Below, piece after piece: positions 8,009 to 38,185 of a stretch of DNA of 38,709 bases. Position 1 is the first letter of the stretch; each line of letters begins with the position of its first letter. The DNA lies in NCBI GenBank assembly GCA_017621115.1, contig JAGATU010000103.1, positions 1 to 38,709 on the forward strand, in the 5' to 3' direction. Under the pieces are notes generated by a model, which was given only the letters and a program-made list of their open reading frames with translations, searched no databases and was not told the DNA's origin. The stretch is from Lachnospiraceae bacterium. GTDB taxonomy: Bacteria > Bacillota_A > Clostridia > Lachnospirales > Lachnospiraceae. Position numbers and translations under genes: made by a program.

Positions 8009-9433
8009 TTATTTCGCTCCCTTTCGAAAAAGCACAACTCCGACCGTCTGCAATAAAATCTTAAAATCCAGTCTTAATGACCAATTATCGATATATTCCA
8101 AGTCATACTTTACGACTTCATCAAACGATAATACATTACTTCTACCGTTTACCTGCCACATTCCGGTCAATCCCGGAGTAATACTCAGACGTCTTCTGTA
8201 ATTCAAATTATACTTTTCAAATTCATCCACTGTAGGCGGTCTGGTTCCTACAAGACTCATATCTCCAATCAGAATATTATAAAACTGTGGCAGCTCATCA
8301 ATGCTTGTCTTTCGGATAAACTTTCCAACCTTCGTTACACGTGGGTCATCCTCCATTTTAAACATTAATCCGTCCATTTCATTTTGTTCCAATAAAGCTT
8401 TCTTTTTCTCTTCCGCATCAATATACATGGATCTGAACTTGTAAATCTTAAATCTTCTTCCATTTTTTCCGATTCGAATCTGTGAAAAGAAAACCGGCCC
8501 TTTGGACTCTAATTTAATGGCAAGCGCTACAAACGGCGTAATTAATGCCGTTAAGAGAAGTCCGACCAAACTTCCCAATATATCAATTAATCTTTTAATT
8601 AGCAGTCTTCTGAAATCCATGTACTTTAATGAGAACGAAACAACGGCATATCCGGCAAACTTTCCTACCGTCTGCTCTGACGAATGCAAATCAATGATAT
8701 CCACATTATAATGACATACCACTCCCATATTCTCAAAATTGATAATCATTTCTTTAATCTTTGGCATATCTTCGTTAGGAAGATAAATAAAAACTTCATC
8801 GAGTAAAATAAGTTTTGCTACGTCAAACAGATTGTCAGAACATGCTACCACATCTATTCCGCATATTTTTTCTCCGACCTTATTCTCATCCATGACAGTT
8901 ATGGCAGTGATTTCATAATTCCATGCCTTATCATGCAATACATTTTCCATTACCGTTTTTGCATGATTACTGTCTGTAATTATCATAACCTTACTGCTGT
9001 TATTTCCTTTGCGATAAAATATCAGCAGATACTTCTTGAATAAAATATGGGAAATATAAGTAAACACCAAATCAAATATCCCAAAATAAGCAATAACAAT
9101 TCTGGAAAAATTTTGTCCTTCTTTGGTCAGATATAATACCGCAATTACCATCAAGACAGAAACAATAATGTATTTTGTTATTGCTATAAATTCAACATAA
9201 TACCCTCTCTGGATAAAATTATTATTGGCATTAACAAATAAATTATATAAAGTACATGCTAATATCAGATATAATCCAATCGTGTAATGGAAATTACGTG
9301 CATACTGCTCTCCAACAGTCCCGAAACGCAAATACAATGCAAGCATATATGAAATTATGATACATACAATATCAATCAATAAAAGACCATATGTCTCAAT
9401 AAGGTTTTTTCTTGTAAATTGCTGCATATCCAT
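8009..9433 (-). CDS. Large initiating sugar-1-phosphate transferase (polyprenyl glycosylphosphotransferase, WbaP/EpsE/CpsE type)
   Basis: The protein is 474 aa from ATG 9433, which has GGAAAGG just upstream; an in-frame TTG at 9469 overlaps the polymerase gene and has no ribosome site. The N-terminal third has four to five membrane segments, followed by a Rossmann-like CoA-binding-type domain (IITDSNHAK). The C-terminal catalytic domain carries KFRSM, SIDELPQFYN (Asp-Glu dyad), SLVGTRPPT and TPGLTGMWQVNGRS. Such proteins put the first sugar phosphate on undecaprenyl phosphate. It is the second initiating enzyme in the window; the one at 37529-38164 is the short PglC type. This duplication suggests two lipid-linked pathways. 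Confidence 0.93.
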   Translation of the reverse strand: MDMQQFTRKNLIETYGLLLIDIVCIIISYMLALYLRFGTVGEQYARNFHYTIGLYLILACTLYNLFVNANNNFIQRGYYVEFIAITKYIIVSVLMVIAVLYLTKEGQNFSRIVIAYFGIFDLVFTYISHILFKKYLLIFYRKGNNSSKVMIITDSNHAKTVMENVLHDKAWNYEITAITVMDENKVGEKICGIDVVACSDNLFDVAKLILLDEVFIYLPNEDMPKIKEMIINFENMGVVCHYNVDIIDLHSSEQTVGKFAGYAVVSFSLKYMDFRRLLIKRLIDILGSLVGLLLTALITPFVALAIKLESKGPVFFSQIRIGKNGRRFKIYKFRSMYIDAEEKKKALLEQNEMDGLMFKMEDDPRVTKVGKFIRKTSIDELPQFYNILIGDMSLVGTRPPTVDEFEKYNLNYRRRLSITPGLTGMWQVNGRSNVLSFDEVVKYDLEYIDNWSLRLDFKILLQTVGVVLFRKGAK

Positions 9434-9459
9434 AATACCTTTCCATATAATAGTTCTTA

Positions 9460-10599
9460 CTATCCACAAACGGAATTATCTCTCTTAAAGAAAGTGTTCC
9501 ATGTTCCCAACAATAAGACAAATGTAAAATTACACAAAAGCGGAACATTTATCACATATGTGGATTCCATAAAGGTGTAAAAAACACAGGTCATTAATAC
9601 CATGTATTCCACCCATTTTTTCTTTACCATACAATCATGTATCAATGTAAAAATACAAAACAGATAAAGCGCCAATATTACATATCCGTAATCCGATACA
9701 ATCGTGATAAATCCGATATCTACCGGTTCTTTTGCAAAATCTGCACCAAACAATCTCCAAGAGTAAAAATCTTCCCACCATGTCAAACTTTCCAACCGGT
9801 CAGTAAGAAGCTGACTGAACTTATATAATAATGCATTGTGTTTTACACCAAATGCCGCTGAATAAATACTGACCCCAACCAAGAATACCGTTACAATCCC
9901 GCCGAACCAATATATGCATTTTATCTCCTTAATTCGTGGCCATAATGAGTAACACAAAGTTCCGATAATCATAACCTGCGCTACAAGCATTCCGGTCCGG
10001 GAACTTGTTAATTGATATAATCCAATATTTACTATTGTAAGCAAAACTGCATGATACCATCGAAATTTTTCCTTAAGCAGTAACAATCCCAATGATATAA
10101 CATACCATAGGGTTCCATGTAAATTATTTGCATGGCTAAATCCCAAACACCAACGTGTCTCCATTCCGCCTCTACCAAAATCAGCAGTTGACGTTATTTC
10201 TCCACCTACTCCAACCAGTGAAAGTCCTATTACCAGAAGATAACCAATCAATGAGGCTATAAAAATACCGGTAATTATTCTTTTGACCGCAACTCCTTTT
10301 GAAGCAATTACCATTACAACAATTCTCAATACCCATTCATCATCTATTGTAAGGTAAGAAATAGTTCCGATTAAACCAAGGAAAGCAATTATCAGCCATT
10401 CGCGCTTTGAATAGTATGTTAGTAGTATTTTTACCCCAAACAAACCAAATGCAATATGAGTTAATCTCCCGCGAAACGGAATTTCAAAAACACTGAATCC
10501 ACCAACCAAAATAAGGAGTTCTATTATAAATGCCAACCAGAAAAACAAGTCCGCTCTTTTTTTCAATGCGTTATATACTTTAGAACATAACTCTTTCAT
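9460..10599 (-). CDS. Wzy-like O-antigen/polysaccharide polymerase
   Basis: The protein is 379 aa with about ten hydrophobic segments. A KGVAVKRI stretch, a GGMETRWCLGFSHANNLHG loop and a SSRTGM motif are typical of O-antigen polymerase/ligase-like proteins. It should join lipid-linked repeats outside the membrane. It lies 22 nt after the ABC exporter gene and 26 nt before the initiating transferase start. AAGGAG lies about 12 nt before the ATG. The partial polymerase at the left edge has similar short motifs. Polymerase versus ligase cannot be settled by eye. Confidence 0.82.
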   Translation of the reverse strand: MKELCSKVYNALKKRADLFFWLAFIIELLILVGGFSVFEIPFRGRLTHIAFGLFGVKILLTYYSKREWLIIAFLGLIGTISYLTIDDEWVLRIVVMVIASKGVAVKRIITGIFIASLIGYLLVIGLSLVGVGGEITSTADFGRGGMETRWCLGFSHANNLHGTLWYVISLGLLLLKEKFRWYHAVLLTIVNIGLYQLTSSRTGMLVAQVMIIGTLCYSLWPRIKEIKCIYWFGGIVTVFLVGVSIYSAAFGVKHNALLYKFSQLLTDRLESLTWWEDFYSWRLFGADFAKEPVDIGFITIVSDYGYVILALYLFCIFTLIHDCMVKKKWVEYMVLMTCVFYTFMESTYVINVPLLCNFTFVLLLGTWNTFFKRDNSVCG

Positions 10600-14322: not shown

Positions 14323-15174
14323 CTAATTTTCCTTATAAAACAATAACATCGGTAGGCAAACCATTCGCTTTACCCACTTCACTTTGCTGCTGCCATGATT
14401 CGTCCGTTCCATGTACCATGCCAGACGCTTTGAATTGGCAATCTTATTTTTTATCTGCCTTTTGAAAAGCGCTGTCTTCTCCGACATTCTGACTGCCCAA
14501 GTCTTTTGTACAGCATTCCCTTCATAACGCACGACATCAAAATCTATAATCACTTCTCTGTTATTTCTACAAAAATCGTCCAGCGCTTTTACATCCTGCT
14601 CATCCATCAGGTTCGTATGCAGACAAACTGTATCAATTCCCTCAGGTTTCTTAAATCCCCTCAATCGGCATGGCACAAAGAGGAGTCCTTTTTCATAATA
14701 TGGCATTTTATACAAGCCATCTGTTACTACCTTAAACCCACATTCTACAAGCGCTTTTAAAGTATCGTTATCGTAAGTATGTCCCGGTGCCATAAAAATA
14801 TCAGCGGCAATTCCATTGTCTTCCAATATCTTTTTACCGGCTTGCAGTTTCTCTATCTGTATATCGTATGGAAGCCCTGCGAATTCACTAAATGGATTAA
14901 TACCAAGCAATCCTGAATTAGTAGTCTCGTACACATGGTATGTACCATGCTGCGCCACCTTCCAACCGCAGTCCTGCAATTCCTTTACAAGATTCCAAAA
15001 CTCTGCATTGTTTTCCGCTTTATGAAGTGTCTCGTCCTGATTCTGTGGCACGACACCAATCAGCGGACATATTTGATACTTGTCCAATACCTCTTTTACT
15101 CTATGAAACCTCTCCATATTCATGTCCGGCGTAATATCATCCAGCCGTATCATGCATTCTGTTCTATTACTCAT
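14323..15174 (-). CDS. DUF2334/polysaccharide deacetylase-like protein (first of two)
   Basis: The protein is 283 aa. It starts IRLDDITPDM with a metal-binding-type D12-D13 pair, then QHGTYH (H76, H80) and FMAPGHTYD, matching the layout of NodB-fold deacetylases, with the DUF2334 style of first motif. The paralog at 32248-32997 shares the same blocks (LDDIT.DM, PLIGVVP, FSEFAGLP, DIFMAP.H). The family is expected to hydrolyse N-acetyl groups on sugars, but few members are proven. There is no signal peptide, so the substrate should be cytoplasmic or membrane-inner-face. AAGGAA precedes the ATG and the gene begins 4 nt after the FemAB-like stop. Confidence 0.83.
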   Translation of the reverse strand: MSNRTECMIRLDDITPDMNMERFHRVKEVLDKYQICPLIGVVPQNQDETLHKAENNAEFWNLVKELQDCGWKVAQHGTYHVYETTNSGLLGINPFSEFAGLPYDIQIEKLQAGKKILEDNGIAADIFMAPGHTYDNDTLKALVECGFKVVTDGLYKMPYYEKGLLFVPCRLRGFKKPEGIDTVCLHTNLMDEQDVKALDDFCRNNREVIIDFDVVRYEGNAVQKTWAVRMSEKTALFKRQIKNKIANSKRLAWYMERTNHGSSKVKWVKRMVCLPMLLFYKEN

Positions 15175-16056: not shown

Positions 16057-17193
16057 CTACTGTTCGATTCTCTGGATAATCTGACTAGCAATGTGCTCTG
16101 CTATAATACGATATCCTTCTTCATTCGGATGAATTCCATCCGGCACCAATAATTCCCTAACTTTCTCATCATGGGTATTCAGAATATTATTGTTATACAT
16201 GTCAATTACATCAAACTCATAACTGGTTACAATAGCATTAATTGCCTCCGCAAAATCCTTCTGATGCACTTTTCGTTCTGGATTGCTATTATATACCGCA
16301 TCATTCAAGACCGTTGAAGGTGGATTAATATAAAACATTTTCACCTGTTGTCCGGGATCGGGATTATGATCAATATACGCATATTTCATAGCACTGCACA
16401 TTCTATCCAAATCTCCACAGAAGGTATCCTCATTCATTCGCAAATCATAATCTATATGACCAAATTCCCAAATATTTTCAAAAAGGCAATCATTGCTTCC
16501 ACCAAATACAATAATAATATCTGAATCAGCAGGAATACCATGCCACCTATCTACCATTGGGTCATTATTTGCACAAGAACTTACTGTAGAGCCTCCCACG
16601 CCCTTATTAACCACTTCCTTACACCCTAAAATATCTTGCAAGACAGACGGATAAGAATATTTTTCTCTATCCTCTTCCGGTAAATTGGTCGCAGCTGTAA
16701 TACTATCTCCCATAATAGTAATCTTTACATCTGAGAAATCAACAGTACATTCTTCTATTACTTTCCTGTCAAACGCATTCATTGCCATTGTCTCATCATA
16801 GGAAGATCTCTCTTTAACACGATTCTCTAATGATATGGTAGAATTAATGAATGGGAAATCTTCATTCCACTTTAATGAATTACCACTTGCCGTTTCCGAT
16901 TCCTCCCCATCCTCTTTCTCTTCTTTTGTAAGTGCACTTTTTTCAGATTCTGCTCTTAACTGTTGCATTCTCTCTTCCGCTTCTGCTTCATAATCAGAGT
17001 ACAAAAGCACATTCTCTGCAACGGTAATATCCTCAGGCATATTTGTAACCGACGCTTCGGTAATTGGCATCTCCTCTACCAGTACTGTCTCTGAATCATT
17101 ATTTGACTTTACAAAATCTCCTATCTTCATTGTACTTAGAGTTAAAACCACACCCAATAATACACAACCGATACGAATCAAAATTTCTTTCAT
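16057..17193 (-). CDS. Membrane-anchored SGNH/GDSL-family hydrolase (putative glycan esterase)
   Basis: The protein is 378 aa. Residues 4-22 form one hydrophobic segment (signal anchor), followed by an acidic, low-complexity linker to about residue 110. The SGNH domain has MGDSITA (S164), a glycine-rich KGVGGSTV block, GGSND (N234) and DGIHPNEEGY (D352, H355), a complete catalytic set. It should sit outside the membrane and remove or transfer acyl groups such as O-acetyl on the exported glycan. AGGAGG lies 11 nt before the ATG. It is separated by 99 nt from the gene upstream and is followed by the strong terminator, so it closes the upstream block. Confidence 0.85.
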   Translation of the reverse strand: MKEILIRIGCVLLGVVLTLSTMKIGDFVKSNNDSETVLVEEMPITEASVTNMPEDITVAENVLLYSDYEAEAEERMQQLRAESEKSALTKEEKEDGEESETASGNSLKWNEDFPFINSTISLENRVKERSSYDETMAMNAFDRKVIEECTVDFSDVKITIMGDSITAATNLPEEDREKYSYPSVLQDILGCKEVVNKGVGGSTVSSCANNDPMVDRWHGIPADSDIIIVFGGSNDCLFENIWEFGHIDYDLRMNEDTFCGDLDRMCSAMKYAYIDHNPDPGQQVKMFYINPPSTVLNDAVYNSNPERKVHQKDFAEAINAIVTSYEFDVIDMYNNNILNTHDEKVRELLVPDGIHPNEEGYRIIAEHIASQIIQRIEQ

Positions 17194-22023: not shown

Positions 22024-22944
22024 CTATTGCAGGATATCGCCCGGTTTAATCTCACACCCAGCTTCAAACTCCTCAATCAATAACGAACCATCCACTGTAC
22101 GTACAACTAATTTCCCATCAAAAATATCCACCACTTCTCCCGGTGCATATTCCGAAAAATCAATCATCTCATCAAAAGGCTGTGCCTTCCAGATGGTCAC
22201 CTTATCTTCTCCGATATATGCAAATGCCCCCGGAAACGGAGCCGCCACACCGCGAATCAGGTTATGAATTTCTCTGGTGCGATTATGGAAATCCACTTTG
22301 CCGTCCACAGCTGTTCTCTTCTGATACCAAGAATCAAAATCCTTAGATTCCGTACGGATAGACACATTTCCTTCCTGGTATGCCTTTAACAATTTGCGGA
22401 TCAGACGTTTGGAACAAATCATATTTTTATACTGTGCCGTACGTATGTCATCATGAGGTGTTAATGAAAACATCTCCGTCGCAAACACATTCGGACTGTC
22501 CGCTTTTTCATCATAACGGAACAAATTTAAGTTAAAACGGGTATCTCCCAAAATGATAGACCAGTTAAGCGGTGAACGCCCTCTTCCAAAAGGAAGATAC
22601 CCTGCATTTCCATGGAATCCATAGATTCCGTAAGCAAAACAATCCAATACCGACTTTGGAATCAGTCTCTGCCATCCCATTGAAATACCGATATCAAATT
22701 CATTTTCCTTAAAGAATTTCTGTGTCTTTTCATCTGTTAGGAAATAACTTTCCGCTTCATGAACCGAAATCCCCAGTTCTTCCGTCAGATAGTTCAGCCC
22801 CTTATAACCGGACACCTGGTTCTTTTCGGTAACGGACTTATCAATCGTCACAATTAAATCCACAGGGCATATTTTTTCATGGATAAAACGTATTATATTT
22901 TCCGATGTATCTTTTACACCAAAGACTACTACTTTATATTTCAT
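22024..22944 (-). CDS. Formyltransferase-fold enzyme, probably sugar N-formyltransferase
   Basis: The protein is 306 aa. The N-terminal domain has the formyltransferase fold: SMGWQRLIPKSVL, then HGNAGYLPFGRGRSPLNW (111-128), IILGDT and DEKADSP (D149). The C-terminal part, APFPGAFAYIG onward, matches the smaller C-terminal domain seen in MetRNA formyltransferase-like proteins. The classic catalytic Asn-x-His is here replaced by H111-G-N113 when aligned to the LP..RG block without gaps. Sugar N-formyltransferases use N10-formyl-THF to formylate an amino sugar. The locus context favours a sugar over Met-tRNA. It lies between two paralogous GT4 genes. Confidence 0.82.
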   Translation of the reverse strand: MKYKVVVFGVKDTSENIIRFIHEKICPVDLIVTIDKSVTEKNQVSGYKGLNYLTEELGISVHEAESYFLTDEKTQKFFKENEFDIGISMGWQRLIPKSVLDCFAYGIYGFHGNAGYLPFGRGRSPLNWSIILGDTRFNLNLFRYDEKADSPNVFATEMFSLTPHDDIRTAQYKNMICSKRLIRKLLKAYQEGNVSIRTESKDFDSWYQKRTAVDGKVDFHNRTREIHNLIRGVAAPFPGAFAYIGEDKVTIWKAQPFDEMIDFSEYAPGEVVDIFDGKLVVRTVDGSLLIEEFEAGCEIKPGDILQ

Positions 22945-22983: not shown

Positions 22984-24093
22984 TTATGATTTTCTTGTAG
23001 ACTCAATATATTCAAGCCACTTTCGGTTTACAATATCCGGATGCACCTCATCTATCAACTTCTTAGCCTTATTGCTCATGCTAACCCTGTATTCATCATC
23101 CGACAATAATTTATCCAATGCCTCTGTCAATGCCTTCTCATTATCTACCGGAATCAGAATTCCGTTAATGCCATCCTCAATCAGTTCTGCCGGTCCGCCA
23201 CATGGACAATCAGTGGATACTGGTGCCAATCCTGATACCATAGCTTCAATCAATGCATTCGGCATCCCCTCCTGTTTGGAGGTTAATACAAACACAGATG
23301 CCGGCTGAATAGCACCGGCTACATCATCTATACGGCCCGCAAAATTAACCTGACCGCACAAGACATTCTCTTTACAGAATTCTTCCATTTCTTCCTTCTG
23401 ATAGCCTTCCCCAATAAAGGTAACAGACCATTCCGGGTACTTTTCTGCTATCTCTGCAAACGCATTAAGCAACATCTCCGGATTCTTATTCGAATCCATT
23501 CTGCCCACCCAGACAATCTCTTTTTTACGCTCGCCGGTGTATTCATTCTGTAAAAACTTTTCACTTAATGAATTAGACAGTACTACAGCTTTTTTCTGTA
23601 CGGATTTAGGAAAAAATTCCTTTGCCTGCTGTGTCTGCAATACAATACCTGCTGCCCGACTAAATAAGACATGTGCCAATATCCTCGTCAACTTGTCAGG
23701 ATACTCCCTTGCAGGATTGGAACGCACCGATACAATTACCGGAATATGCAAACCTGCTGCCGCTGTAATTGCCATAAAATTATTTTTCTTAATAAAGGAC
23801 ACAATGTAATCCGGTGCAAGTTGCTTGAAGATATTTCGGAGTTTTGTGATTCTTCGATACAAATTCACAACCCGGTTGTCGCTAATCTCATCACCTGTAA
23901 TATCAGCCAGAATTCTTGTTACACCTTCCGGAACCGGATACTCATCCTCATCCTGTAATTTGGTCACAATGGTTACCTTATAGCCACACGAACGGAAATA
24001 CGCCGCAAGATTTACGATAACGCGCTCTGCGCCACCCATACATAAGCTGCCGATATAAAAAACTATGGACTTTTCATTTGTCTGCCTGCTCAT
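22984..24093 (-). CDS. Family 4 glycosyltransferase (GT-B fold)
   Basis: The protein is 369 aa. FYIGSLCMGGAERVIVNLA is the N-terminal loop. VWVGRMDSNKNPEMLLNAF, FAGRIDDVAG, TSKQEGMPNALIEAMVSG (E-x7-E) and TDCPCGGPAELI mark the donor-binding domain. It is a paralog of 20877-21980. The ATG at 24093 follows the SDR stop by 39 nt. The role is addition of one sugar on the cytoplasmic face; specificity unknown. Confidence 0.9.
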   Translation of the reverse strand: MSRQTNEKSIVFYIGSLCMGGAERVIVNLAAYFRSCGYKVTIVTKLQDEDEYPVPEGVTRILADITGDEISDNRVVNLYRRITKLRNIFKQLAPDYIVSFIKKNNFMAITAAAGLHIPVIVSVRSNPAREYPDKLTRILAHVLFSRAAGIVLQTQQAKEFFPKSVQKKAVVLSNSLSEKFLQNEYTGERKKEIVWVGRMDSNKNPEMLLNAFAEIAEKYPEWSVTFIGEGYQKEEMEEFCKENVLCGQVNFAGRIDDVAGAIQPASVFVLTSKQEGMPNALIEAMVSGLAPVSTDCPCGGPAELIEDGINGILIPVDNEKALTEALDKLLSDDEYRVSMSNKAKKLIDEVHPDIVNRKWLEYIESTRKS

Positions 24094-24132: not shown

Positions 24133-24879
24133 TTAACACATATAATCTCCACCGGAAAGATTCAGGTTGGTACCATTCACATACGATGCCTCATCCGATA
24201 AGAGATACGCGATTCCACCTACCGTTTCGTCTACACGGATATTTCGTTTCATTGCTGAAGAATCCGCTGTCATCTGTACGATTTTCTCATCTATATTCTG
24301 CAAAAATTTCGTTTCCATCATATTCGGGGAAATGCCGTTAATACATACACCTTTATCCCCGTATTCTGCTGCAGCCGCTTTCACATATCCAAGCAATGCG
24401 CTCTTAACAGCCACATAATCACTCATAAACTTAGGCGGTGTGCCAAGCACATAGGAAGACAGCATCACACATACTCTCCCGTAACCTACCTTTGCCATTT
24501 GAGGAAGAAGTTCTTTCATCATGGAGGCAAAAGAGAAAAACTGAATCTGCATTTCTTTTCTTACTTTTTCTTCATCCCATTTCTTAATCTTTACATGGGC
24601 AAACACAGATGCCGCCAAGTGAAGCACATGAGTTACTTCCATTCCCTGCTCCTTTATAAAGGCACATACCTTGTCCGCACCTTCTGCAAGCGACAAATCG
24701 GCCTGTACCATGCGTAAATCCACATTTACAAGTTCCTTCTGCAATGCTTCCAGTCCGGCCTTTGTATTGGCATAATGAGCTATTACAACCACCTTTTCAG
24801 ATACTGTTTCATCCAACTTCTTAATATATGCCATTCCCACTTCCGAAGAAGCACCTGTAATTAAATATACCTTGTTCAT
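24133..24879 (-). CDS. Short-chain dehydrogenase/reductase (FabG-like)
   Basis: The protein is 248 aa from ATG 24879, which has GGGGAG 6 nt upstream; an in-frame TTG at 24909 is disfavoured. The nucleotide-binding loop is TGASSEVG (8-15), where the middle Gly of TGxxxGxG is Glu. The catalytic set is S141/S142, Y155 and K159 (DYVAVKSAL), and the C-terminus NLSGGDYMC resembles FabG ends. It should use NAD(P)H to reduce or oxidise a beta-hydroxy/keto substrate. It begins 33 nt after the MaoC stop and ends a run of acyl-ACP-type genes. It may act on the ACP-bound acyl group, but a sugar substrate is possible. Confidence 0.83.
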   Translation of the reverse strand: MNKVYLITGASSEVGMAYIKKLDETVSEKVVVIAHYANTKAGLEALQKELVNVDLRMVQADLSLAEGADKVCAFIKEQGMEVTHVLHLAASVFAHVKIKKWDEEKVRKEMQIQFFSFASMMKELLPQMAKVGYGRVCVMLSSYVLGTPPKFMSDYVAVKSALLGYVKAAAAEYGDKGVCINGISPNMMETKFLQNIDEKIVQMTADSSAMKRNIRVDETVGGIAYLLSDEASYVNGTNLNLSGGDYMC

Positions 24880-24885
24880 CCTGTT

Positions 24886-24891
24886 CTCCCC
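24886..24891 (-). promoter_or_regulatory. Ribosome binding site deciding the SDR start
   Basis: GGGGAG, within a longer purine-rich run, lies 6 nt before the ATG at 24879. It supports this start over the in-frame TTG at 24909. Confidence 0.6.
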
Positions 24892-24912
24892 TTCCTTTTC
24901 GAGAGACAATTC

Positions 24913-25332
24913 CTAATCCTCCAGAATTCCAACCTGCATTTTCCCGCGCAGGACTTTTTCACCATTCTGGTTCACAATTGTCGTCTTCATGGTAAATACC
25001 GAAAACATCTCATTACACTCCGTTACCTGTCCTGAAACGGTCAATGTATCACCCACATAAACCGGCTTGGTAAATTTGCTCTCCACACTGTGAATCAGGC
25101 TTCTTTCCCCCGGAAGATATACACCCGCAAGAGTAGATAAAAAGGATGCCGTCAGCATGCCGTATGCCACATTGGACTCATAGCCCTTTGCTTTTGCAAA
25201 GTTTTCATCCGTATGAAGTGGATTCACATCACCTGTAATCTGACAGAACCGCGCAAGCATATCCGCCGTTACCGTTACCTGAAATTCTTCTATTAATCCT
25301 ACATAAATATCTTTGAACTGATACCGATTCAT
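24913..25332 (-). CDS. MaoC-like (R)-specific enoyl hydratase/dehydratase
   Basis: The protein is 139 aa, a single hot-dog domain. GDVNPLHTDENFAKA (from residue 34) carries the hydratase signature with catalytic-type D35 and H40. YGMLTASFLSTLAG and KFTKPVYVGDTLTV are also typical. Known relatives hydrate crotonyl-type thioesters to (R)-3-hydroxyacyl groups on CoA or ACP. It lies 3 nt after the MBOAT stop and before the SDR, with the ACP two genes upstream, so an acyl-ACP substrate is likely (inference). The length is normal for a one-domain member. Confidence 0.87.
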   Translation of the reverse strand: MNRYQFKDIYVGLIEEFQVTVTADMLARFCQITGDVNPLHTDENFAKAKGYESNVAYGMLTASFLSTLAGVYLPGERSLIHSVESKFTKPVYVGDTLTVSGQVTECNEMFSVFTMKTTIVNQNGEKVLRGKMQVGILED

Positions 25333-25335
25333 ACT

Positions 25336-26865
25336 CTAAAATCCCTGATAAATAAATTCCGCCGCACTGTATCCCGGTCCGTAATTCCCCATTAAAATCA
25401 CCCAGAACAACAATGCATACAACAACAACCATCTGACTACAATATTTTTCTTAGCAAGCCACTCTCTTACGCTGTCCTTCTGTTGCATTACAGATATAAT
25501 CCAGAGTAAAGTCAATGAAAATATTAATACAACCCATTCCTTTAATTCCAGTCCCAATTGTAACAGGCTTCCGTCCCATAAAATCCATGGATTCCATGTC
25601 GTCAGCACGTTTCGTATCATCGAAAGCGCGCTAAAAAATCCCGCCGAATTAAAGAATAGGAACGCAAATGACATCAATAGGAAAGTTCTTACCATCTGAA
25701 AAACAGAAAACCATTTTGTGTCCTTTGTTACTCTAAACAAGGCCCGCAGTTTCACCCATAAAGGCTCCAACAATTCTCCGCCGACAATGTAAATCCAAGG
25801 AATCATACCGGAACCGATAATGTATTTCCATGAGCCGCCATGCCATAGACCTACTGCAAACCACAGTATGAACATTGCGGAGAAGGTCGTAATCTTTTTG
25901 GCTGTTTTCTTACCGAAACGTGGCTTTAACTTGCCCGGAAGTTCCATAAAGAATTCTGTTCTGAGTACCGGATAGAAAATGTAATCTTTAAGCCATCCAC
26001 CGAGTGTTATATGCCATCTTCGCCAAAATTCCTGAATCGTTTTGGAAAAAAACGGAGTCTGAAAGTTCTCGGGAAGTGTAATGCCATACACCTGTGATAC
26101 GCCGATTACAATATCCATCGAACCGGAGAAATTTGAATATAACTGTAGCGAAAAACATAATGTGGCAAACACAATATAAAAGCCACCGTAGGTTTCATAA
26201 TCATCATAAACTGTGGACACTACGATTGCCAAACGTTCCGAAATGACAAGCACCTTGAAAAATCCCCATAAGATTCTCTGGAGCCCTCTTGTCACCTGAG
26301 CATAATCAAAGGCATGCTCTCCAAACATCTGCTCTTTCATATCTTTATAACGCATAATCGGGCCACTGATAATGGTAGGAAAATACATTCCAAACAAGAA
26401 TAATCTTGCCCAGTTCTTTTCCGCAGGAGCAATCTCATAATACACATCAAAAACATAACTTAATATCGATAATGTATAAAAAGACACACCAAGCGGAATC
26501 AAAAAATGCAGTGTATCAAGCAGCGCGGGAGACTCTGTTAGACGGCTTGCAAGTGCGTTATAAGTATAAACACCCAGATTTAAGTATTTTAGCACAATTA
26601 AAATGCCTAAATTACATACGACAACAAGAGAAAGGCCCCACTTTCTTTTTTTGCGGTCTTTCTCTTGTTCTATCATTTTCGCCCCGAAATAGGTCACTGT
26701 TATAGATGCCAAAGGATACAAAATCAAAAGTGCATTTCCCGATACCAGAAAATAGAACACACTGATTATTAATAAAAAGGGCCATTGGCATCGTTTGGGA
26801 ATGCTGTAATACAATAACACTGATACTGCAAAAAACAGCAAAAACAAAAACGAGGTAATTCCCAT
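25336..26865 (-). CDS. MBOAT-family O-acyltransferase (DltB/AlgI-like)
   Basis: The protein is 509 aa with about ten membrane segments. It has the core MBOAT pattern FWRRWHITLGGWLKDYIFYP (280-299) and the invariant catalytic-type LWHGGSW with H342. The family moves acyl groups from an inner thioester donor to an exported acceptor: DltB uses D-alanyl-DltC and AlgI helps O-acetylate alginate. It lies 15 nt after an ACP gene, as dltB neighbours dltC, with a membrane SGNH protein beyond. The likely role is O-acylation of the glycan; the acyl group is probably not D-alanine, because I see no DltA-like adenylating enzyme in the window. Confidence 0.92.
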   Translation of the reverse strand: MGITSFLFLLFFAVSVLLYYSIPKRCQWPFLLIISVFYFLVSGNALLILYPLASITVTYFGAKMIEQEKDRKKRKWGLSLVVVCNLGILIVLKYLNLGVYTYNALASRLTESPALLDTLHFLIPLGVSFYTLSILSYVFDVYYEIAPAEKNWARLFLFGMYFPTIISGPIMRYKDMKEQMFGEHAFDYAQVTRGLQRILWGFFKVLVISERLAIVVSTVYDDYETYGGFYIVFATLCFSLQLYSNFSGSMDIVIGVSQVYGITLPENFQTPFFSKTIQEFWRRWHITLGGWLKDYIFYPVLRTEFFMELPGKLKPRFGKKTAKKITTFSAMFILWFAVGLWHGGSWKYIIGSGMIPWIYIVGGELLEPLWVKLRALFRVTKDTKWFSVFQMVRTFLLMSFAFLFFNSAGFFSALSMIRNVLTTWNPWILWDGSLLQLGLELKEWVVLIFSLTLLWIISVMQQKDSVREWLAKKNIVVRWLLLYALLFWVILMGNYGPGYSAAEFIYQGF

Positions 26866-26880
26866 AACTTATTTCCGTCC

Positions 26881-27123
26881 TTATGCAATGGCAGCCAGGA
26901 TAACGTCTACCATTTCTCCTACATTTTTCATTCCGACAACCTGTGCCATTGTAAACTTCACACCGAATGTTTTTTCAACAGCAGAAACCAGATTGATATG
27001 TTCCAAAGAATCCCAATCTTCAATATCATCTGCGGTTGTCTCAGCGTTTACCGTAATGGAATCATCATCAAACACATCCTGAAATACTTCGTTTAATTTT
27101 TCATAGATTGCTTCTCTTGTCAT
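26881..27123 (-). CDS. Acyl carrier protein
   Basis: The protein is 80 aa, acidic, and of normal ACP length. EDWDSLEHINLV contains S39, the site for 4'-phosphopantetheine attachment. The EDWDSLEH form is typical of carriers in specialised acyl pathways rather than fatty acid AcpP, which usually has DSLD. It lies between the SGNH and MBOAT genes and close to the FkbH-like gene. It is probably charged by the FkbH-like protein and read by MBOAT. AAAGGTGAG lies a few nt before the ATG. A 12-nt palindrome precedes it, probably by chance. Confidence 0.93.
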   Translation of the reverse strand: MTREAIYEKLNEVFQDVFDDDSITVNAETTADDIEDWDSLEHINLVSAVEKTFGVKFTMAQVVGMKNVGEMVDVILAAIA

Positions 27124-27164
27124 AGTCTATTCTCACCTTTCAAATATTTGACCAAACGCACTCG

Positions 27165-28220
27165 TCACTTACCATATACTATATATCTGTCTCTATTTTC
27201 GTTTACTTCAATGTAAACATCGCAAAACGCTTTGTAACTATCATTCCATGATTCATAACCGTCTTCATCACGCTTATCAGGCAAAGCATATCTATTAATA
27301 ATATATTCTCCCAATGCCTCAGAACATTTCTTAGCTCCCAATATATTCGAATGTCCACCGTCCAGATATTCTGTCGTACAATCGTAATCTACAACGTCAT
27401 GAACATTCAAATACTGAAAACCTTCCTGCTCAATAATATCCTTCATGTAGTTCATCTGTGCATAATATTCCTCCTTAAAAGTACAGGGCGCAACCACAAA
27501 CAATGCATCCTGTTTGTTTTCTTTCAAGAAAGAAAACAAATCCCTGAGTATAGTTTCCTGCTCTACCGGAATAGGTATAATATCTTCTGTCTTATGATAG
27601 GTGTCATACTCAGGATTATGACACAATATCTCTTCCGGATGTTCAAACCCCTTATGCAAATCTGCTTTTCTGTAAGTAACCTTTTGCAATTCCTTAATAT
27701 CAAAAAACATTCCCCAGTTAGAATGATATTTGATTATATCAAAATAATAAGACAATTTATCGTCAAACCCCTCTACTCCGTCCGTGAGTGCTGACACCGC
27801 TTTAATACGGTGTTGTGAGTAACGCATATTATCAACTACTTCTCTAATATGTGGTTCGTCCTGTGCGAGAACTTCATCCTCATAGGTAAACATGCGTAGT
27901 TCAACAACAATAAGTTCCGGGGTCTGAGTCTTATATGCTTCTTCTAACAAATACCTTATCGCCTTCGGTCTCTGGGTATTAGAAGATAGTGGGTAGGACG
28001 TAAAACCATATTCTCCCCACATGTACCCAGGCGAAAAAGAAGTAGCAACCGTACTGCCACCAAACATCATGACATCAATACTATTCTTTTTTTCCGCATA
28101 AAATCCAGCAAACCTGTCCTTTACATCCCCATTTGTCCTTACAATATAGGACACTCCCGTTAAAAGAAGCACAAAAATCAATATGAAACTAAGCGCTTTA
28201 CATGCTTCTTTGCGGTTCAT
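27165..28220 (-). CDS. Membrane-anchored SGNH-like protein (DltD/AlgJ-type partner of MBOAT)
   Basis: The protein is 351 aa from ATG 28220, with AGAGG 5-6 nt upstream; an in-frame TTG at 28235 is disfavoured. Residues 9-27 form one signal-anchor helix. The SGNH-like domain outside has MMFGGSTVA (S56) and the late YLDGGHSN (D287, H290), which form a plausible Ser-Asp-His set. It is like DltD and AlgJ/AlgX, which act with an MBOAT protein in transfer to the glycan. The gene is more AT-rich than its neighbours (18 of 60 at 27721-27780 against 27 of 60 in the FkbH gene at 28921-28980). It begins one nt after the FkbH stop. Confidence 0.83.
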   Translation of the reverse strand: MNRKEACKALSFILIFVLLLTGVSYIVRTNGDVKDRFAGFYAEKKNSIDVMMFGGSTVATSFSPGYMWGEYGFTSYPLSSNTQRPKAIRYLLEEAYKTQTPELIVVELRMFTYEDEVLAQDEPHIREVVDNMRYSQHRIKAVSALTDGVEGFDDKLSYYFDIIKYHSNWGMFFDIKELQKVTYRKADLHKGFEHPEEILCHNPEYDTYHKTEDIIPIPVEQETILRDLFSFLKENKQDALFVVAPCTFKEEYYAQMNYMKDIIEQEGFQYLNVHDVVDYDCTTEYLDGGHSNILGAKKCSEALGEYIINRYALPDKRDEDGYESWNDSYKAFCDVYIEVNENRDRYIVYGK

Positions 28221-28221
28221 C

Positions 28222-30000
28222 TTAACCTCTTTCAATCACTTCATTTTTGTATGGATATTCTGCAGGGATCTCATATTTCCAAGTTGTATTACCCTGCTCA
28301 TCTTCCTGCGTTTTGGTAAAATCCTGTAAGGAATAGAATTCTCTTACCATGGCATTTTTGGCCGTTGGATAATAATATCCGTAAATAGAATCAATGCCTT
28401 GCTCCTTGCACTTTTCAACCAAAGTATCCATCATAGCAAATTCCATATCACGCTTTAACACACGGCAACTCATAAGCCACAAGCGGATGTGAAGAGTATT
28501 GCCTTCCTTCTCTCCGATTACAACGGATACCACACCGTTGTCGCCGAATTTATCCTCTAATTTACCGTATAGGGTAATAAACTTCTCATCCTGTGCAATC
28601 GCTTCTATTTCACTCTGCGAATAGCGCTTCGTTGTTAGATTAAACTGATTGCTTTTATTTGTCAACTGAGCAATTCTTGCCATATACATGGCTTCAAAAG
28701 GCGCAATTACTGCCTTCATCTGCAGGGACTTCAAATATTCCTTATAATCCCCAAAGGACTGCTCCTGCTGCTTACGCATCACATTGGCCTTGTACATCTC
28801 ATTACGGTTGCGATCATCCTCGGAAAGCTTGGTTACTTCAAAGAATCCGCTGTGGTCCAGAACGCGGATATATTCTTCCGGATTACCAATTTCCGGGACT
28901 GCCGTTCCCACAACCTGCTGCCTGATAATCTCTCTTTCTGCCGGATTATCATCCACAAAAACCAGCGAATCCGGCAGTATATTGAGTTCTGATGCAATAT
29001 CCACAAGATTCTTACTCTTAGGATCCCAGTTAGCTTTAATTATGATAAAATCATCCGGCTTTAACGCTCCGTCCGGATGCTGCAAGCCTGCCAATGCATT
29101 TTCTTCTTCGTTCTTAGAGTTAACATTCAGCATAACGCCAAGCTGTTTCTGCATTTTAATATAATTCTGGAACTCAGAATATACCTGACCAAGAGATGTC
29201 TCCTGACCAATTTCCAAATTCTCCACACCATCGTCACCGACGATACCGCCCCAAAGGGTATTGTCAAGATCGAGGACCAGTGCCTTTTTATTTTTGCCAT
29301 AAATGGATTTAATAATATTGGACACGTTGAACGCCAGATTCGGAATCGCATCCAGGCAAAGCGCATATTTGTACATATGCCAAAAAAACGGGTCCGCCCA
29401 TTTATCCAATCCATAACAAGAAGAAAGATAATTAATATCATTAATATAGAAATTCTCATGCGCATCCGCATATTCATAGAATTTCTCATTCAACCGGTTC
29501 AAAAAATGAATCCTTCCATGCATATCCACTGCATCTCGATTACCCAACAGGCGGTAAAATGGCATCTCAAAATTATTCTGAACAATCGGACAGGCATAAG
29601 TCTCTCTTAACTTATCCCACATAACCTCAAAATGCTTATATGCACTGTCCTCTTTCGAAAGAACTGCTTCCTTACTGTCATTCAAATCGGGATAATCCGT
29701 TATATTACGGTTGCTTGTATGGATATAAATCACATCCGGAGCAAATTCCATAAGTTCCGGATTATCAAACATCGCATCCTGCCAATACATTGCGTATTCG
29801 GATTCGTAAAAAAGCGGCTCAATTCCCTGTTCCAGCAAAAACAATTCCAGCACACGAATAATATCATGTGTCGTGCTGCCACCCAGAACCGCAATCTTTT
29901 TGACAATACGCTTGTCCTCTGATGCAAGTAGTTCTTTTTTTATTCTCTTTGCTTTTTTTAAAATATATTCGTTATCAAACGGATATTGCAATTCTCTCAC
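28222..30000 (-). CDS. FkbH-like HAD-IIIC protein (putative glyceryl-ACP-forming enzyme)
   Basis: The protein is 592 aa. It has an N-terminal SGNH-like part (LGGSTTHD, S42), then a HAD domain with LVLDLDNTLWGG (D244, D246), VNSKNEE (S295), a Lys near 330 and FVDDNPAERE (D350, D351), and a C-terminal GNAT-like region from about 460 to 585. This matches FkbH-family proteins, which take the glyceryl group from 1,3-bisphosphoglycerate and load it on an ACP. The start is GTG at 30000, overlapping the GT4 stop by 4 nt (GTGA). The ACP gene lies downstream, two genes away. Glyceryl loading here is inferred; other acyl groups are possible. Confidence 0.87.
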   Translation of the reverse strand: MRELQYPFDNEYILKKAKRIKKELLASEDKRIVKKIAVLGGSTTHDIIRVLELFLLEQGIEPLFYESEYAMYWQDAMFDNPELMEFAPDVIYIHTSNRNITDYPDLNDSKEAVLSKEDSAYKHFEVMWDKLRETYACPIVQNNFEMPFYRLLGNRDAVDMHGRIHFLNRLNEKFYEYADAHENFYINDINYLSSCYGLDKWADPFFWHMYKYALCLDAIPNLAFNVSNIIKSIYGKNKKALVLDLDNTLWGGIVGDDGVENLEIGQETSLGQVYSEFQNYIKMQKQLGVMLNVNSKNEEENALAGLQHPDGALKPDDFIIIKANWDPKSKNLVDIASELNILPDSLVFVDDNPAEREIIRQQVVGTAVPEIGNPEEYIRVLDHSGFFEVTKLSEDDRNRNEMYKANVMRKQQEQSFGDYKEYLKSLQMKAVIAPFEAMYMARIAQLTNKSNQFNLTTKRYSQSEIEAIAQDEKFITLYGKLEDKFGDNGVVSVVIGEKEGNTLHIRLWLMSCRVLKRDMEFAMMDTLVEKCKEQGIDSIYGYYYPTAKNAMVREFYSLQDFTKTQEDEQGNTTWKYEIPAEYPYKNEVIERG

Positions 30001-31112
30001 TTACGTGTCACCTTTTCAAATAAATCTATATACTCCTTGGCAATATAGGAAACATCAAATTTCTCAGCTGTTCTGCGGATTCTTTCTTCATCCCAATCAC
30101 GCTTCAAACATTCTTCCATCTTCTCTGCCAATTGATTGATATCATTATATTTTACCAAATATCCATTCACATCATCAACTACTATTTCTCTCGGTCCAAT
30201 CGGACAATCATAAGAAACAATAGGAATTCCACAGCCAATGGCTTCAATCAGGCAATTGGGCATACCTTCATACTCGGACGAAAGAACAATCATATCTGCC
30301 TTTGCATAGATTTTTTCCATGTCTTTGCAGACACCCTCAAAACTAACCCACTCAGAAAGGCCTTTATCTTCTACCATTTTCTTAATAGCATCAGTCAGAT
30401 TACCGTTTCCGATTAATCGCAGGCAGGTATTAGGCATTTTCTTATACAACATAGTAAATGCTTCAACCAAATGCGGCAGATTCTTCTGTGGATCCAGCCT
30501 TCCAATAAAAACAATCTCTCTGGTGCGGTCTACTTCCCTTCTCGCAAAAGGAATACGAATCTCCATTGTCTTAGCAATCAAATCGCGACTAACCGGATTG
30601 TAAACGCGGCTTATCTGTTCTTTCTTTACCAGTTTCTTCTCTAAAAGCTGCTCTTTCATTGCATCGCACTGCGCAATGACATGCTCCATGTCTGCAAGTT
30701 GTTTCTGCGCCTTCTGCAAATAGCTTTCTACAATCGGAGACACATTATCTTCTTTTGCAAGGGAAATATTAACATTATTTAACACGCGTACTACAAGTGG
30801 TATATTAAGCAAATGCAATTTTCGCATTTTATTCAGAATAACTGCCATTTCATTGCCAAATACAAATAAAAACGGCGGTCTATATTTCTTAACATAACCA
30901 AGCATGGCCGGCGCCGCATAACGTAATCTGGACACACCTAAAGGGTGTACCTGCACGCGCGAATCCAAAAGATGCGTGTTCACATCATTTTCCAGATTCA
31001 ATACTACGATATGTACTTCATTTCCCTTATCCGCAAATTCATTGGCTAAGTTTACGCAGACTCTCTCTGCTCCGCCGATACCCATATGCGCAATAAAAAC
31101 ATGAATCTTCAT
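29997..31112 (-). CDS. Family 4 glycosyltransferase (GT-B fold)
   Basis: The protein is 371 aa. FIAHMGIGGAERVCVNLANE is the N-terminal loop. FIGRLDPQKNLPHLVEAF, SSEYEGMPNCLIEAIGCG (E-x7-E) and SYDCPIGPREIV mark the donor domain. It resembles the PglJ/EpsD-like GT4 group. The ATG at 31112 overlaps the upstream stop (ATGA), and its own stop overlaps the FkbH GTG start, so three genes are translationally linked. It should add a sugar to the repeat before acylation; donor unknown. Confidence 0.9.
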   Translation of the reverse strand: MKIHVFIAHMGIGGAERVCVNLANEFADKGNEVHIVVLNLENDVNTHLLDSRVQVHPLGVSRLRYAAPAMLGYVKKYRPPFLFVFGNEMAVILNKMRKLHLLNIPLVVRVLNNVNISLAKEDNVSPIVESYLQKAQKQLADMEHVIAQCDAMKEQLLEKKLVKKEQISRVYNPVSRDLIAKTMEIRIPFARREVDRTREIVFIGRLDPQKNLPHLVEAFTMLYKKMPNTCLRLIGNGNLTDAIKKMVEDKGLSEWVSFEGVCKDMEKIYAKADMIVLSSEYEGMPNCLIEAIGCGIPIVSYDCPIGPREIVVDDVNGYLVKYNDINQLAEKMEECLKRDWDEERIRRTAEKFDVSYIAKEYIDLFEKVTRK

Positions 31113-32247: not shown

Positions 32248-32997
32248 TTATCCCGCCTTTCGCGCACGGAGTCCCACTAATATATGCTTAAGAGTTGCCA
32301 GACCATACTCCCATATATTACCAATAAACCATCTTTTAGACGGAGATTTCTTTAATAATTCTTCATACGAAATAAATGACTTTCTATTATCTTCAAAGAT
32401 TTTCTTGCAACGTTCGAAATCCTTATCGTCCATGGTATTGGTATGGTAAACCAACGTAGTATATCCTTCGGTTTCTTTGTAACAATCGGACTGTTTTATA
32501 GCTATCGGAAGGAATACTAATCCACTTCTGACAAATGGTTTCTTACCAAATCCATCCGTCACATAAGAAAATCCATTTTTCTTTAACGCCTTTAATGTAT
32601 TTCTGTCAAAGGAGTGCGCAGGTGCCATAAAGATATCAGTTTCTATGCCCCAGTTTACAAGCTGCTCTTTTCCTTTTGCTATCATTGCATTCTGTTTTTC
32701 AAGGGGTAAACCTGCAAACTCGGAAAAGTGATTCAGCGGAAAGAGCCCTCCCTTATCCGTTGAATACAAATGCTCATATCCATGCAACGCTATGCTCCAG
32801 CCTTCGGCAAGCAAGCCCTGTAAAAATCCGGGGAAGTCCTCATGCTTTGGACCCTGCATCAGATTTTTATCCTCATTAAATGGAACTACACCTATCAAAG
32901 GTTTGATTTGATAGGTGTCCAGAATCTGTTTCATTTTATAAAATTTTTCGTAGTCCATATCGGACGTAATATCGTCCAATCGTACTGCTATTTTCAA
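32248..32997 (-). CDS. DUF2334/polysaccharide deacetylase-like protein (second of two)
   Basis: The protein is 249 aa. AVRLDDITSDM (D8, D9), LHGYEH (H72, H76) and FMAPAHSFD are metal-site-type motifs of the deacetylase fold. It is a paralog of 14323-15174 with shared PLIGVVP, FSEFAGLP and DIFMAP blocks, but is 34 aa shorter. There is no signal peptide. It follows the epimerase gene by 19 nt, so the substrate could be the aminouronic acid or a lipid-linked sugar made from it (inference). Confidence 0.83.
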   Translation of the reverse strand: MKIAVRLDDITSDMDYEKFYKMKQILDTYQIKPLIGVVPFNEDKNLMQGPKHEDFPGFLQGLLAEGWSIALHGYEHLYSTDKGGLFPLNHFSEFAGLPLEKQNAMIAKGKEQLVNWGIETDIFMAPAHSFDRNTLKALKKNGFSYVTDGFGKKPFVRSGLVFLPIAIKQSDCYKETEGYTTLVYHTNTMDDKDFERCKKIFEDNRKSFISYEELLKKSPSKRWFIGNIWEYGLATLKHILVGLRARKAG

Positions 32998-37528: not shown

Positions 37529-38164
37529 TTACGCTTCTTTCTTTTCTTCCATTCTCGCTTTACGGATTTCGGCAAAATTACCTTCCACGAAATTCGTATC
37601 TTCCGCAACATTTTCTTTTACAAATACCACTTTTACCGTCAGAAAGATAATCTTCAAATCCATTAAAAACGATAGATTTTTTACATATTCTACGTCTTTT
37701 TTCAAACGGTTATCCCAATCAAGAAAATTTCTTCCGCTCACCTGTGCAAGTCCCGTAAGCCCCGGGCGCACGGTGTGGCGCAGTTTCTCTTCCTCCGTAT
37801 AATATGGCAAATAGGACACCAAAAGCGGTCTTGGTCCAATAAGGCTCATATCTCCTTTAAAAATATTCCACAGTTCCGGTAATTCATCCAGACTGGCGGA
37901 ACGAAGCAGTTTGCCGAATTTGGTAAGGCGCACATTATCCGGAAGCAGATTTCCGTTTTCGTCCCTTTCATCAGTCATCGTCCGGAATTTACAAAGAGTG
38001 AATATCTTTTCATTCTTGCCCGGACGTTCCTGATGAAAAATCACCGGACTTCCTAATTTTACACGGATTAAAATCGCCAGAATCAGATACACCGGTGACA
38101 AAACAATTAATGCCACGCCCGATATCACAATATCCAGCAATCTTTTTATAAATAGCCGATACAT
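37529..38164 (-). CDS. Short phosphoglycosyl transferase (PglC-like initiating enzyme)
   Basis: The protein is 211 aa from ATG 38164, which has AGAAAGG 9 nt upstream; an in-frame ATG at 38185 abuts the aminotransferase stop. One N-terminal re-entrant helix (residues 8-32) precedes KFRTM, SLDELPELWN (Asp-Glu dyad), SLIGPRPLL and RPGLTGLAQVSGRN. This is the minimal monotopic PglC type, which moves a sugar-1-phosphate (often diNAcBac or related) to undecaprenyl phosphate. The upstream PglE-like aminotransferase supports an amino-sugar substrate. A larger enzyme at 8009-9433 has the same catalytic domain. Confidence 0.93.
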   Translation of the reverse strand: MYRLFIKRLLDIVISGVALIVLSPVYLILAILIRVKLGSPVIFHQERPGKNEKIFTLCKFRTMTDERDENGNLLPDNVRLTKFGKLLRSASLDELPELWNIFKGDMSLIGPRPLLVSYLPYYTEEEKLRHTVRPGLTGLAQVSGRNFLDWDNRLKKDVEYVKNLSFLMDLKIIFLTVKVVFVKENVAEDTNFVEGNFAEIRKARMEEKKEA

Positions 38165-38173
38165 AAAGTTGTA

Positions 38174-38180
38174 CCTTTCT
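38174..38180 (-). promoter_or_regulatory. Ribosome binding site deciding the PglC-like start
   Basis: AGAAAGG lies 9 nt before the ATG at 38164 and supports this start over the in-frame ATG at 38185. Confidence 0.55.
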
Positions 38181-38185
38181 GTCAA

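Follow-up and report, generated by a model that had tools for sequence, protein, structure and literature searches.

Gene content of the locus

We analyzed a DNA stretch of 38,709 nucleotides from a Lachnospiraceae bacterium (contig JAGATU010000103.1 of assembly GCA_017621115.1; hereafter, the window), in which positions 24133-30000 carry six packed genes on the minus strand. In transcription order, they encode an FkbH-like protein, an SGNH protein, an acyl carrier protein (ACP), an MBOAT (membrane-bound O-acyltransferase), a MaoC-type protein, and a short-chain dehydrogenase/reductase (SDR). A sequence-only reading had proposed these six genes as a Dlt-like acylation module with a different activating enzyme, and all six were recovered at the positions it gave by open reading frames (ORFs), Pfam, and NCBIfam:

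28222-30000, minus strand: FkbH-like protein of 592 amino acids (TIGR01686; FkbH_N, PF21211; HAD phosphatase domain; C-terminal part with SCR motif)
27165-28235, minus strand: membrane-anchored, DltD-like SGNH protein, proposed final acyltransferase (predicted model, Foldseek, hydropathy)
26881-27123, minus strand: acyl carrier protein with Ser39 (PF00550)
25336-26865, minus strand: MBOAT with the DltB fold and about 85 extra C-terminal residues (PF03062, TIGR04091)
25339-25356, minus strand: FxYxxF acyl-shuttle hexapeptide FIYQGF at the MBOAT C terminus (translation)
24913-25332, minus strand: MaoC-type hydratase/dehydratase (PF01575)
24133-24909, minus strand: SDR oxidoreductase, FabG/YmfI-like (PF13561)

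By ORF coordinates, neighboring genes within the module overlap or are separated by 3 to 41 bp, so that the module fits one transcription unit. The MBOAT gene lies between the ACP and MaoC genes, with MaoC and SDR directly behind it at 3-bp gaps. A glycosyltransferase gene (29997-31112) overlaps the FkbH start, and a second (22984-24093) lies downstream of the SDR gene. The window also encodes several GT2 and GT4 glycosyltransferases, a UDP-sugar dehydrogenase, a TviC-like epimerase, and a pyruvyltransferase, along with ABC transporter and ATP-grasp genes detected by family scans. Judged by this gene content, the window is a surface-polysaccharide locus.

Dlt is the machinery that attaches D-alanine to the cell walls of Gram-positive bacteria. 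Among the 34 window proteins scanned, no AMP-binding match indicative of a DltA-type activator was found, and FkbH occupies that place in the module; ketosynthase, thiolase, and condensation domains were likewise without a match among these 34 proteins. We regard the module as real and conserved, and it is best read as carrier-fed MBOAT-SGNH acylation in which FkbH takes over the role of DltA.

FkbH, carrier, and predicted transfer proteins

The FkbH protein matched TIGR01686 at 278.4 bits (cutoff, 146.65) as well as PF21211, and 3slr is a relative in the PDB. Its DLDNTLWGG, DDNP, and SCR motifs are invariant in 16 aligned sequences and were found in 118, 119, and 125, respectively, of 125 distinct FkbH ORFs. 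The best PDB match of the ACP was 2lml (E = 2.7e-17), for which a lipopolysaccharide role has reportedly been proposed. Ser39 of the ACP and His342 of the MBOAT both stand where the sequence-only reading had put them, and the [DN]S[LFIVM] site was present in 124 of 125 distinct ACP ORFs. NCBIfam DltC models gave no match to the window ACP. In tetronate and nonribosomal peptide synthetase (NRPS) pathways, FkbH and a carrier form a glyceryl thioester from 1,3-bisphosphoglycerate (PMC7489565 and PMC8949500). By analogy, it is likely that FkbH of the module loads a glyceryl group from 1,3-bisphosphoglycerate on the ACP.

FkbH matches at E ≤ 1e-80 were present in 67 of 397 Lachnospiraceae genomes versus 10 of 398 Bacillota genomes. 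Among the matches listed, FkbH had two relatives at 100% and ten at 97 to 98% identity, and the best SGNH relative stood at 78%, a contrast that suggests mosaic exchange of parts.

The MBOAT matched PF03062 and scored 147 bits with the DltB model TIGR04091, below its cutoff of 375, and the nearest fold to its predicted model was that of DltB. His342 and Tyr506 are invariant in a 23-sequence alignment that includes the window protein. The translated C terminus, FIYQGF, fits the FxYxxF acyl-shuttle motif, which was defined in PMC12148441 and which in Dlt is carried by DltX. The same motif closes 63 of the 65 MBOATs that lie on the FkbH strand within 6 kb. With gaps of at most 41 bp, the module has no room for a DltX gene, and none was sought elsewhere in the genome. 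The proposed likeness to Dlt is revised in one respect: like PatA, the MBOAT carries the shuttle motif itself, instead of relying on a DltX.

No Pfam or NCBIfam model matched the SGNH protein, and a fold search was needed because a PDB sequence search with its profile returned nothing meaningful. Ranks 1 to 3 of the Foldseek search with its predicted model (pLDDT, 87) were DltD chains (6pfx and 3bma; E = 2.2e-4 to 6.9e-4). In a structure comparison ranked by Z score, DltD came at ranks 39 and 49 (Z = 11.4 and 11.1), with scores shared by many other SGNH enzymes, and its alignments with the model (233 and 247 residues) were the longest among the matches listed. Ser56 and His290 are invariant and Asp287 nearly so in 20 sequences (P0121 numbering), and a hydropathy scan predicted one N-terminal transmembrane helix. 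Regular expressions for the SGNH motifs, a loose check that we did not use as evidence, gave 68/75 and 57/75.

Conservation of the gene cluster

We compared 81 FkbH-anchored loci, the best 80 of a longer list plus the window, a set in which co-occurrence is biased by the anchor. The 80 relatives belong to Lachnospiraceae, other Clostridia/Eubacteriales, or genera including Butyrivibrio and Eisenbergiella, or are named “bacterium,” and many are metagenome assembled. A contig or locus end falls within 6 kb of FkbH in 12 of the 81 loci, which were kept in the counts. Conservation of FkbH-ACP-MBOAT-SGNH neighborhoods was borne out by this search: on the same strand within 6 kb of FkbH, we found an ACP gene in 77/81 loci, an MBOAT gene in 63/81, and an SGNH- or GDSL-type gene in 71/81. 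The complete six-gene set occurred in eight of the 81, including the window, and the MaoC-anchored survey described below recovered it in L118, L125, L131, and L141 as well. Of 30 FkbH loci from the survey of 397 Lachnospiraceae genomes, 25 have an ACP gene and 15 an MBOAT gene at a distance of up to about 1.5 kb. The clustering of genes around FkbH is not chance. A second SGNH/GDSL protein in the window (16057-17193) matches the model of a GDSL family that 59 of the 81 loci carry no more than 6 kb from FkbH.

To offset the bias of the FkbH anchor, we added the MaoC-anchored survey and one anchored on the MBOAT (the 30 best loci, about 1.5 kb on each side); in the latter, a profile model placed an ACP gene within about 1.5 kb in 17/30 loci. 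Some of the other 13 had FkbH, an SDR, another small carrier, or ligases, and some had no recognized activator or carrier. One locus much like the window (L222 of genome G328), with deacetylase-, asparagine-synthase-, and glycosyltransferase-like genes recognized by eye, has ACP-MBOAT-SGNH without an adjacent FkbH gene, and the FkbH match of this genome is on the same contig at a distance of about 70 kb.

We then placed 145 MBOAT sequences in a midpoint-rooted tree built by a quick method and containing long branches, and labeled as linked those with ACP or FkbH within 6 kb. A branch with a support of 98 set apart a side of 99 sequences, of which 77 were linked to FkbH or ACP, 5 neighbored an AMP-binding ligase or DltC-like carrier by profile models, and 17 were unlabeled. 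The opposite side of 46 comprised 41 unlabeled MBOATs and five with FkbH or ACP; unlabeled MBOATs mostly end in FIYFQF or FYYFQF. Four neighboring ligases were tested, and those of L224 and L226 scored 312 to 332 bits with two DltA models (cutoffs, 476 and 560), while the ligases at L225:867-2273 and of L229 resemble general acyl-CoA ligases. The L224 carrier scored best with a DltC model, below cutoff. Judged from this tree, related MBOATs do work with either FkbH or a DltA-like ligase. The reading of FkbH as the stand-in for DltA is strengthened because FkbH-linked MBOATs share their side of the tree with MBOATs that neighbor DltA-like ligases and DltC-like carriers. At L225, a formyltransferase-like gene (L225:4106-4981) lies between the ligase-like gene and the carrier gene, possibly pointing to an N-formyl aminoacyl group there; a formyltransferase-like gene also lies near the module in the window (22024-22944).

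Distribution of MaoC, SDR, and VOC genes

The best PDB matches of the MaoC protein were 3ir3 (3-hydroxyacyl-thioester dehydratase 2) and the R-specific enoyl-CoA hydratases 1iq6 and 5cpg. Asp35 and His40, which we take to be the catalytic Asp-His pair of the hydratase motif, are invariant in 13 sequences. The SDR matched FabG- and acetoacetyl-reductase-like NCBIfam models, all below cutoff, and its Tyr165 and Lys169 are invariant in eight sequences.

The 397 Lachnospiraceae genomes were surveyed for MaoC, and matches at E ≤ 1e-20 occurred in 34. FkbH (E ≤ 1e-80) was present in 22 of 23 genomes with MaoC at E ≤ 1e-30 versus 45 of 374 others (Fisher P = 7.5e-18), and the exception, G109, has two FkbH reading frames beside MaoC (L130). 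Within 3 kb of the 25 MaoC loci of this close class, we found ACP in 24, FkbH in 18, SDR in 14, MBOAT in 6, SGNH in 4, and VOC (vicinal oxygen chelate) genes in none; FkbH, ACP, and SDR stood together with an MBOAT in 4/25. Seven loci lacked FkbH within 3 kb (L110, on a 3.25-kb contig, L119, L120, L121, L123, L124, and L127), yet all seven genomes carry FkbH elsewhere, whereas the same search found none in six genomes with only weak MaoC matches. Across all 11 genomes with weak matches only, FkbH was found in one (G199). Eight of the 13 loci with weak MaoC matches were fetched, and L141 alone has FkbH, ACP, and SDR within 3 kb (1/8).

In the 81 FkbH-anchored loci, MaoC and SDR occurred together in 8 and VOC (either strand) in 58, with no locus shared (Fisher P = 1.5e-5), and VOC was found within 3 kb in 0 of the 33 MaoC loci fetched. 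The VOC proteins tested resemble methylmalonyl-CoA epimerase (55 and 46 bits; cutoff, 115). The genome linkage of MaoC with FkbH and the mutual exclusion of MaoC-SDR and VOC are new here. VOC genes often lie antisense to FkbH and ACP, for example, at L012:12145-12558, L013:12021-12422, and L005:13736-14131.

AAC(3)-like and DUF4910/DUF2172 genes accompany ACP-MaoC in L126 and L127 (tested) and in L120, L121, and L132 (by eye). FkbH joins these sets in L126 and L132, with the AAC(3)-like and DUF4910 genes in front in L126. Sir2-, ssb-, or ribosomal-protein-like genes were seen by eye near the sets of L120, L121, L126, and L132.

Proposed pathway and alternative explanations

A DltB-fold MBOAT, a DltD-like SGNH protein, a carrier, FkbH in the position of the activator, and a glycan locus together uphold the claim of a Dlt-like module, and by analogy we consider a Dlt-like transfer highly probable. 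The transfer steps proposed here are drawn from fold, motif, and the published PatA and Dlt mechanisms. As known for its family, FkbH would take 1,3-bisphosphoglycerate, remove the phosphate, and load the glyceryl group on the ACP. Glyceryl-ACP is both a 2-hydroxyacyl and a 3-hydroxyacyl thioester, and because it is the latter, MaoC could dehydrate it. Removal of water would yield 2-hydroxyacrylyl-ACP, the enol of pyruvyl-ACP, and the SDR would reduce pyruvyl-ACP to lactyl-ACP. The DltB-like MBOAT would then carry the acyl group across the membrane onto Tyr of its own C-terminal FIYQGF, from which the DltD-like SGNH protein would take it on Ser and esterify a hydroxyl group on the polysaccharide that the surrounding locus produces. 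Where VOC stands instead of MaoC-SDR, this epimerase-like protein would invert the 2-position of the glyceryl group. MaoC-SDR and VOC may exclude each other because they are alternative ways of tailoring one ACP-bound 2-hydroxyacyl group.

The acyl group is probably a glyceric- or lactic-acid group on the surface glycan. The earlier claim of a glyceryl or derived hydroxyacyl group can be narrowed, since the presence of MaoC and SDR favors a processed group, for which we propose lactyl, over plain glyceryl. By analogy, lactyl as the product has about an even chance of being correct, and the full reading, a glycolysis-charged, carrier-fed MBOAT-SGNH module that acylates an exported glycan with lactyl made via FkbH, MaoC, and SDR, is as evenly balanced. 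More tentatively, with odds somewhat below even, the Lachnospiraceae loci may form a modular family, in which one DltB/DltD-like chassis accepts interchangeable front ends (DltA-like ligases or FkbH) and tailoring by VOC or MaoC-SDR. Such a family could use DltA-like ligases for amino acids, VOC for glyceryl stereochemistry, and MaoC-SDR for lactyl, an assignment of roles that is just as tentative.

Several observations weigh against the lactyl pathway. The route to lactyl leans on the bryostatin precedent, which no paper found in our literature search states. The eight-sequence SDR alignment does not show the usual catalytic Ser as a conserved residue. The MaoC cut at E ≤ 1e-30 was placed post hoc, at a gap between 7.2e-31 and 6.7e-28, and our exclusivity and co-occurrence tests treat loci as unrelated. 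FkbH, ACP, and SDR occur without an MBOAT within 3 kb in 9 of the 25 close MaoC loci, some near a contig end, so that the product of the cassette must often go elsewhere. ACP-MaoC is found without FkbH or SDR within 3 kb in L119, L120, L121, L123, and L127, and MaoC of L124 has no ACP, FkbH, or SDR on its strand; MaoC thus need not act on glyceryl-ACP. FkbH-ACP-MaoC without SDR in L122 (contig end), L126, L132, and L134 is left unexplained by the mechanism. Finally, MaoC and SDR are missing from 73 of the 81 FkbH-anchored loci, and lactyl therefore cannot be the general product.

Since 55 of these 73 loci have an MBOAT within 6 kb, the same transfer machine might instead move plain or epimerized glyceryl, with MaoC and SDR serving a different sugar or acyl group in the locus, and di-O-methyl-glyceric acid is known on Campylobacter jejuni pseudaminic acid (PMC3068675). 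We consider this unlikely, though worth real weight, as MaoC and SDR stand right behind the MBOAT gene, and MaoC is genome linked to FkbH and never found in one locus with VOC. Slightly less likely again is that the acyl group moved by the MBOAT-SGNH pair is (R)-3-hydroxybutyryl, formed by MaoC and SDR from crotonyl or acetoacetyl thioesters, with FkbH acting as a loader or on another substrate. That product would fit the R-specific enoyl-CoA hydratases among the closest solved structures to MaoC, the below-cutoff resemblance of the SDR to FabG and acetoacetyl reductases, and the five ACP-MaoC loci without FkbH within 3 kb. However, 22 of 23 MaoC genomes have FkbH, the genomes of all seven MaoC loci that lack FkbH within 3 kb carry it elsewhere, the FkbH phosphatase motifs are intact, fitting a phosphorylated substrate, and no ketosynthase or thiolase match was found among the scanned window proteins.

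The MBOAT-free cassettes also bear on a third possibility, in which FkbH, ACP, MaoC, and SDR make an acyl donor inside the cell for a cytosolic N- or O-acyltransferase with a nucleotide sugar as its substrate, while O-acetylation of the glycan from acetyl-CoA is a separate task of MBOAT-SGNH. The four-gene cassette without an MBOAT in 9/25 close MaoC loci, the cassette of L133 beside a NeuD-family acyltransferase, and the FkbH-ACP-MaoC set that L126 (and, by eye, L132) has next to AAC(3)-type acyltransferase and DUF4910 genes would fit such a role. The MBOAT tree argues otherwise, as its support-98 split has a carrier or activator nearby for 82/99 sequences on one side and none for 41/46 on the other, and the window MBOAT gene lies between ACP and MaoC; we judge this explanation improbable. 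FkbH is also known from polyketide synthase (PKS) and NRPS pathways (PMC7489565, PMC8949500), and a natural-product pathway might lie in a glycan locus by chance. With surroundings of glycosyltransferases and sugar-nucleotide enzymes and without a ketosynthase, condensation, or AMP-binding match among the scanned proteins, gene content makes such a pathway unlikely, and we give this coincidence a very small probability.

Relation to known systems

The module shares with Dlt (DltA, DltB, DltC, DltD, and DltX) a DltB-fold MBOAT with catalytic His, a DltD-like SGNH protein, a dedicated carrier, and the FxYxxF motif, but differs in having FkbH for DltA, a shuttle motif borne by the MBOAT, additional MaoC and SDR genes, and a polysaccharide-locus setting. 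With PatA-PatB and the MBOAT-SGNH pairs for O-acetylation of alginate, cellulose, and peptidoglycan, it has in common the C-terminal MBOAT hexapeptide and a separate SGNH protein (PMC12148441). In that paper, PatA-type pairs are reported without a carrier and with an acyl-CoA donor, whereas the module includes an ACP gene. FkbH and a carrier also form the glyceryl units of tetronate, methoxymalonyl, and vioprolide/cystomanamide pathways (PMC7489565, PMC8949500), but those units feed a PKS or NRPS, while that of the module would feed a membrane acyltransferase.

A glyceric-acid-derived group on a bacterial glycan is likewise found in the di-O-methyl-glyceric-acid pseudaminic acid of C. jejuni flagellin (Cj1295; PMC3068675). 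That system acts on a nonulosonic acid, and MBOAT and SGNH proteins go unmentioned in the accessible text; likewise, the accessible parts of PMC13317340 and PMC13130089 make no mention of FkbH, Cj1302, or an acyl carrier. The AAC(3)-DUF4910-(FkbH)-ACP-MaoC loci described above recall the Cj1295 region. We assume that this region holds FkbH and ACP genes. In bryostatin biosynthesis, the BryA loading module combines FkbH with dehydratase and ketoreductase domains to make a D-lactyl starter. The pathway proposed here would follow the same logic of glyceryl formation, dehydration, and reduction to lactyl.

In the open-licence literature searched, partly by top matches only, we found no description of FkbH with an MBOAT in a glycan locus, which is weak evidence of absence; FkbH, MBOAT, and acyl carrier protein taken together matched a single paper, on aeruginosins. 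If correct, our reading would add a second carrier-fed branch to MBOAT-SGNH acylation, with an activator that works without adenylation and a coat decoration tied to glycolysis. On this reading, Lachnospiraceae polysaccharides should bear a small lactyl or glyceryl ester, which would not survive an alkaline work-up. If the modular-family reading is also true, lactyl and glyceryl esters at the cell surface would reflect glycolytic flux.

Two further features of the window were observed. The locus contains two polyprenyl-phosphate (initiating) sugar transferases, at 8009-9469 and 37529-38185. DUF2334 is encoded by two separate window genes (14323-15174 and 32248-32997) and is fused to SGNH relatives in P0205, P0208, P0212, and P0229.

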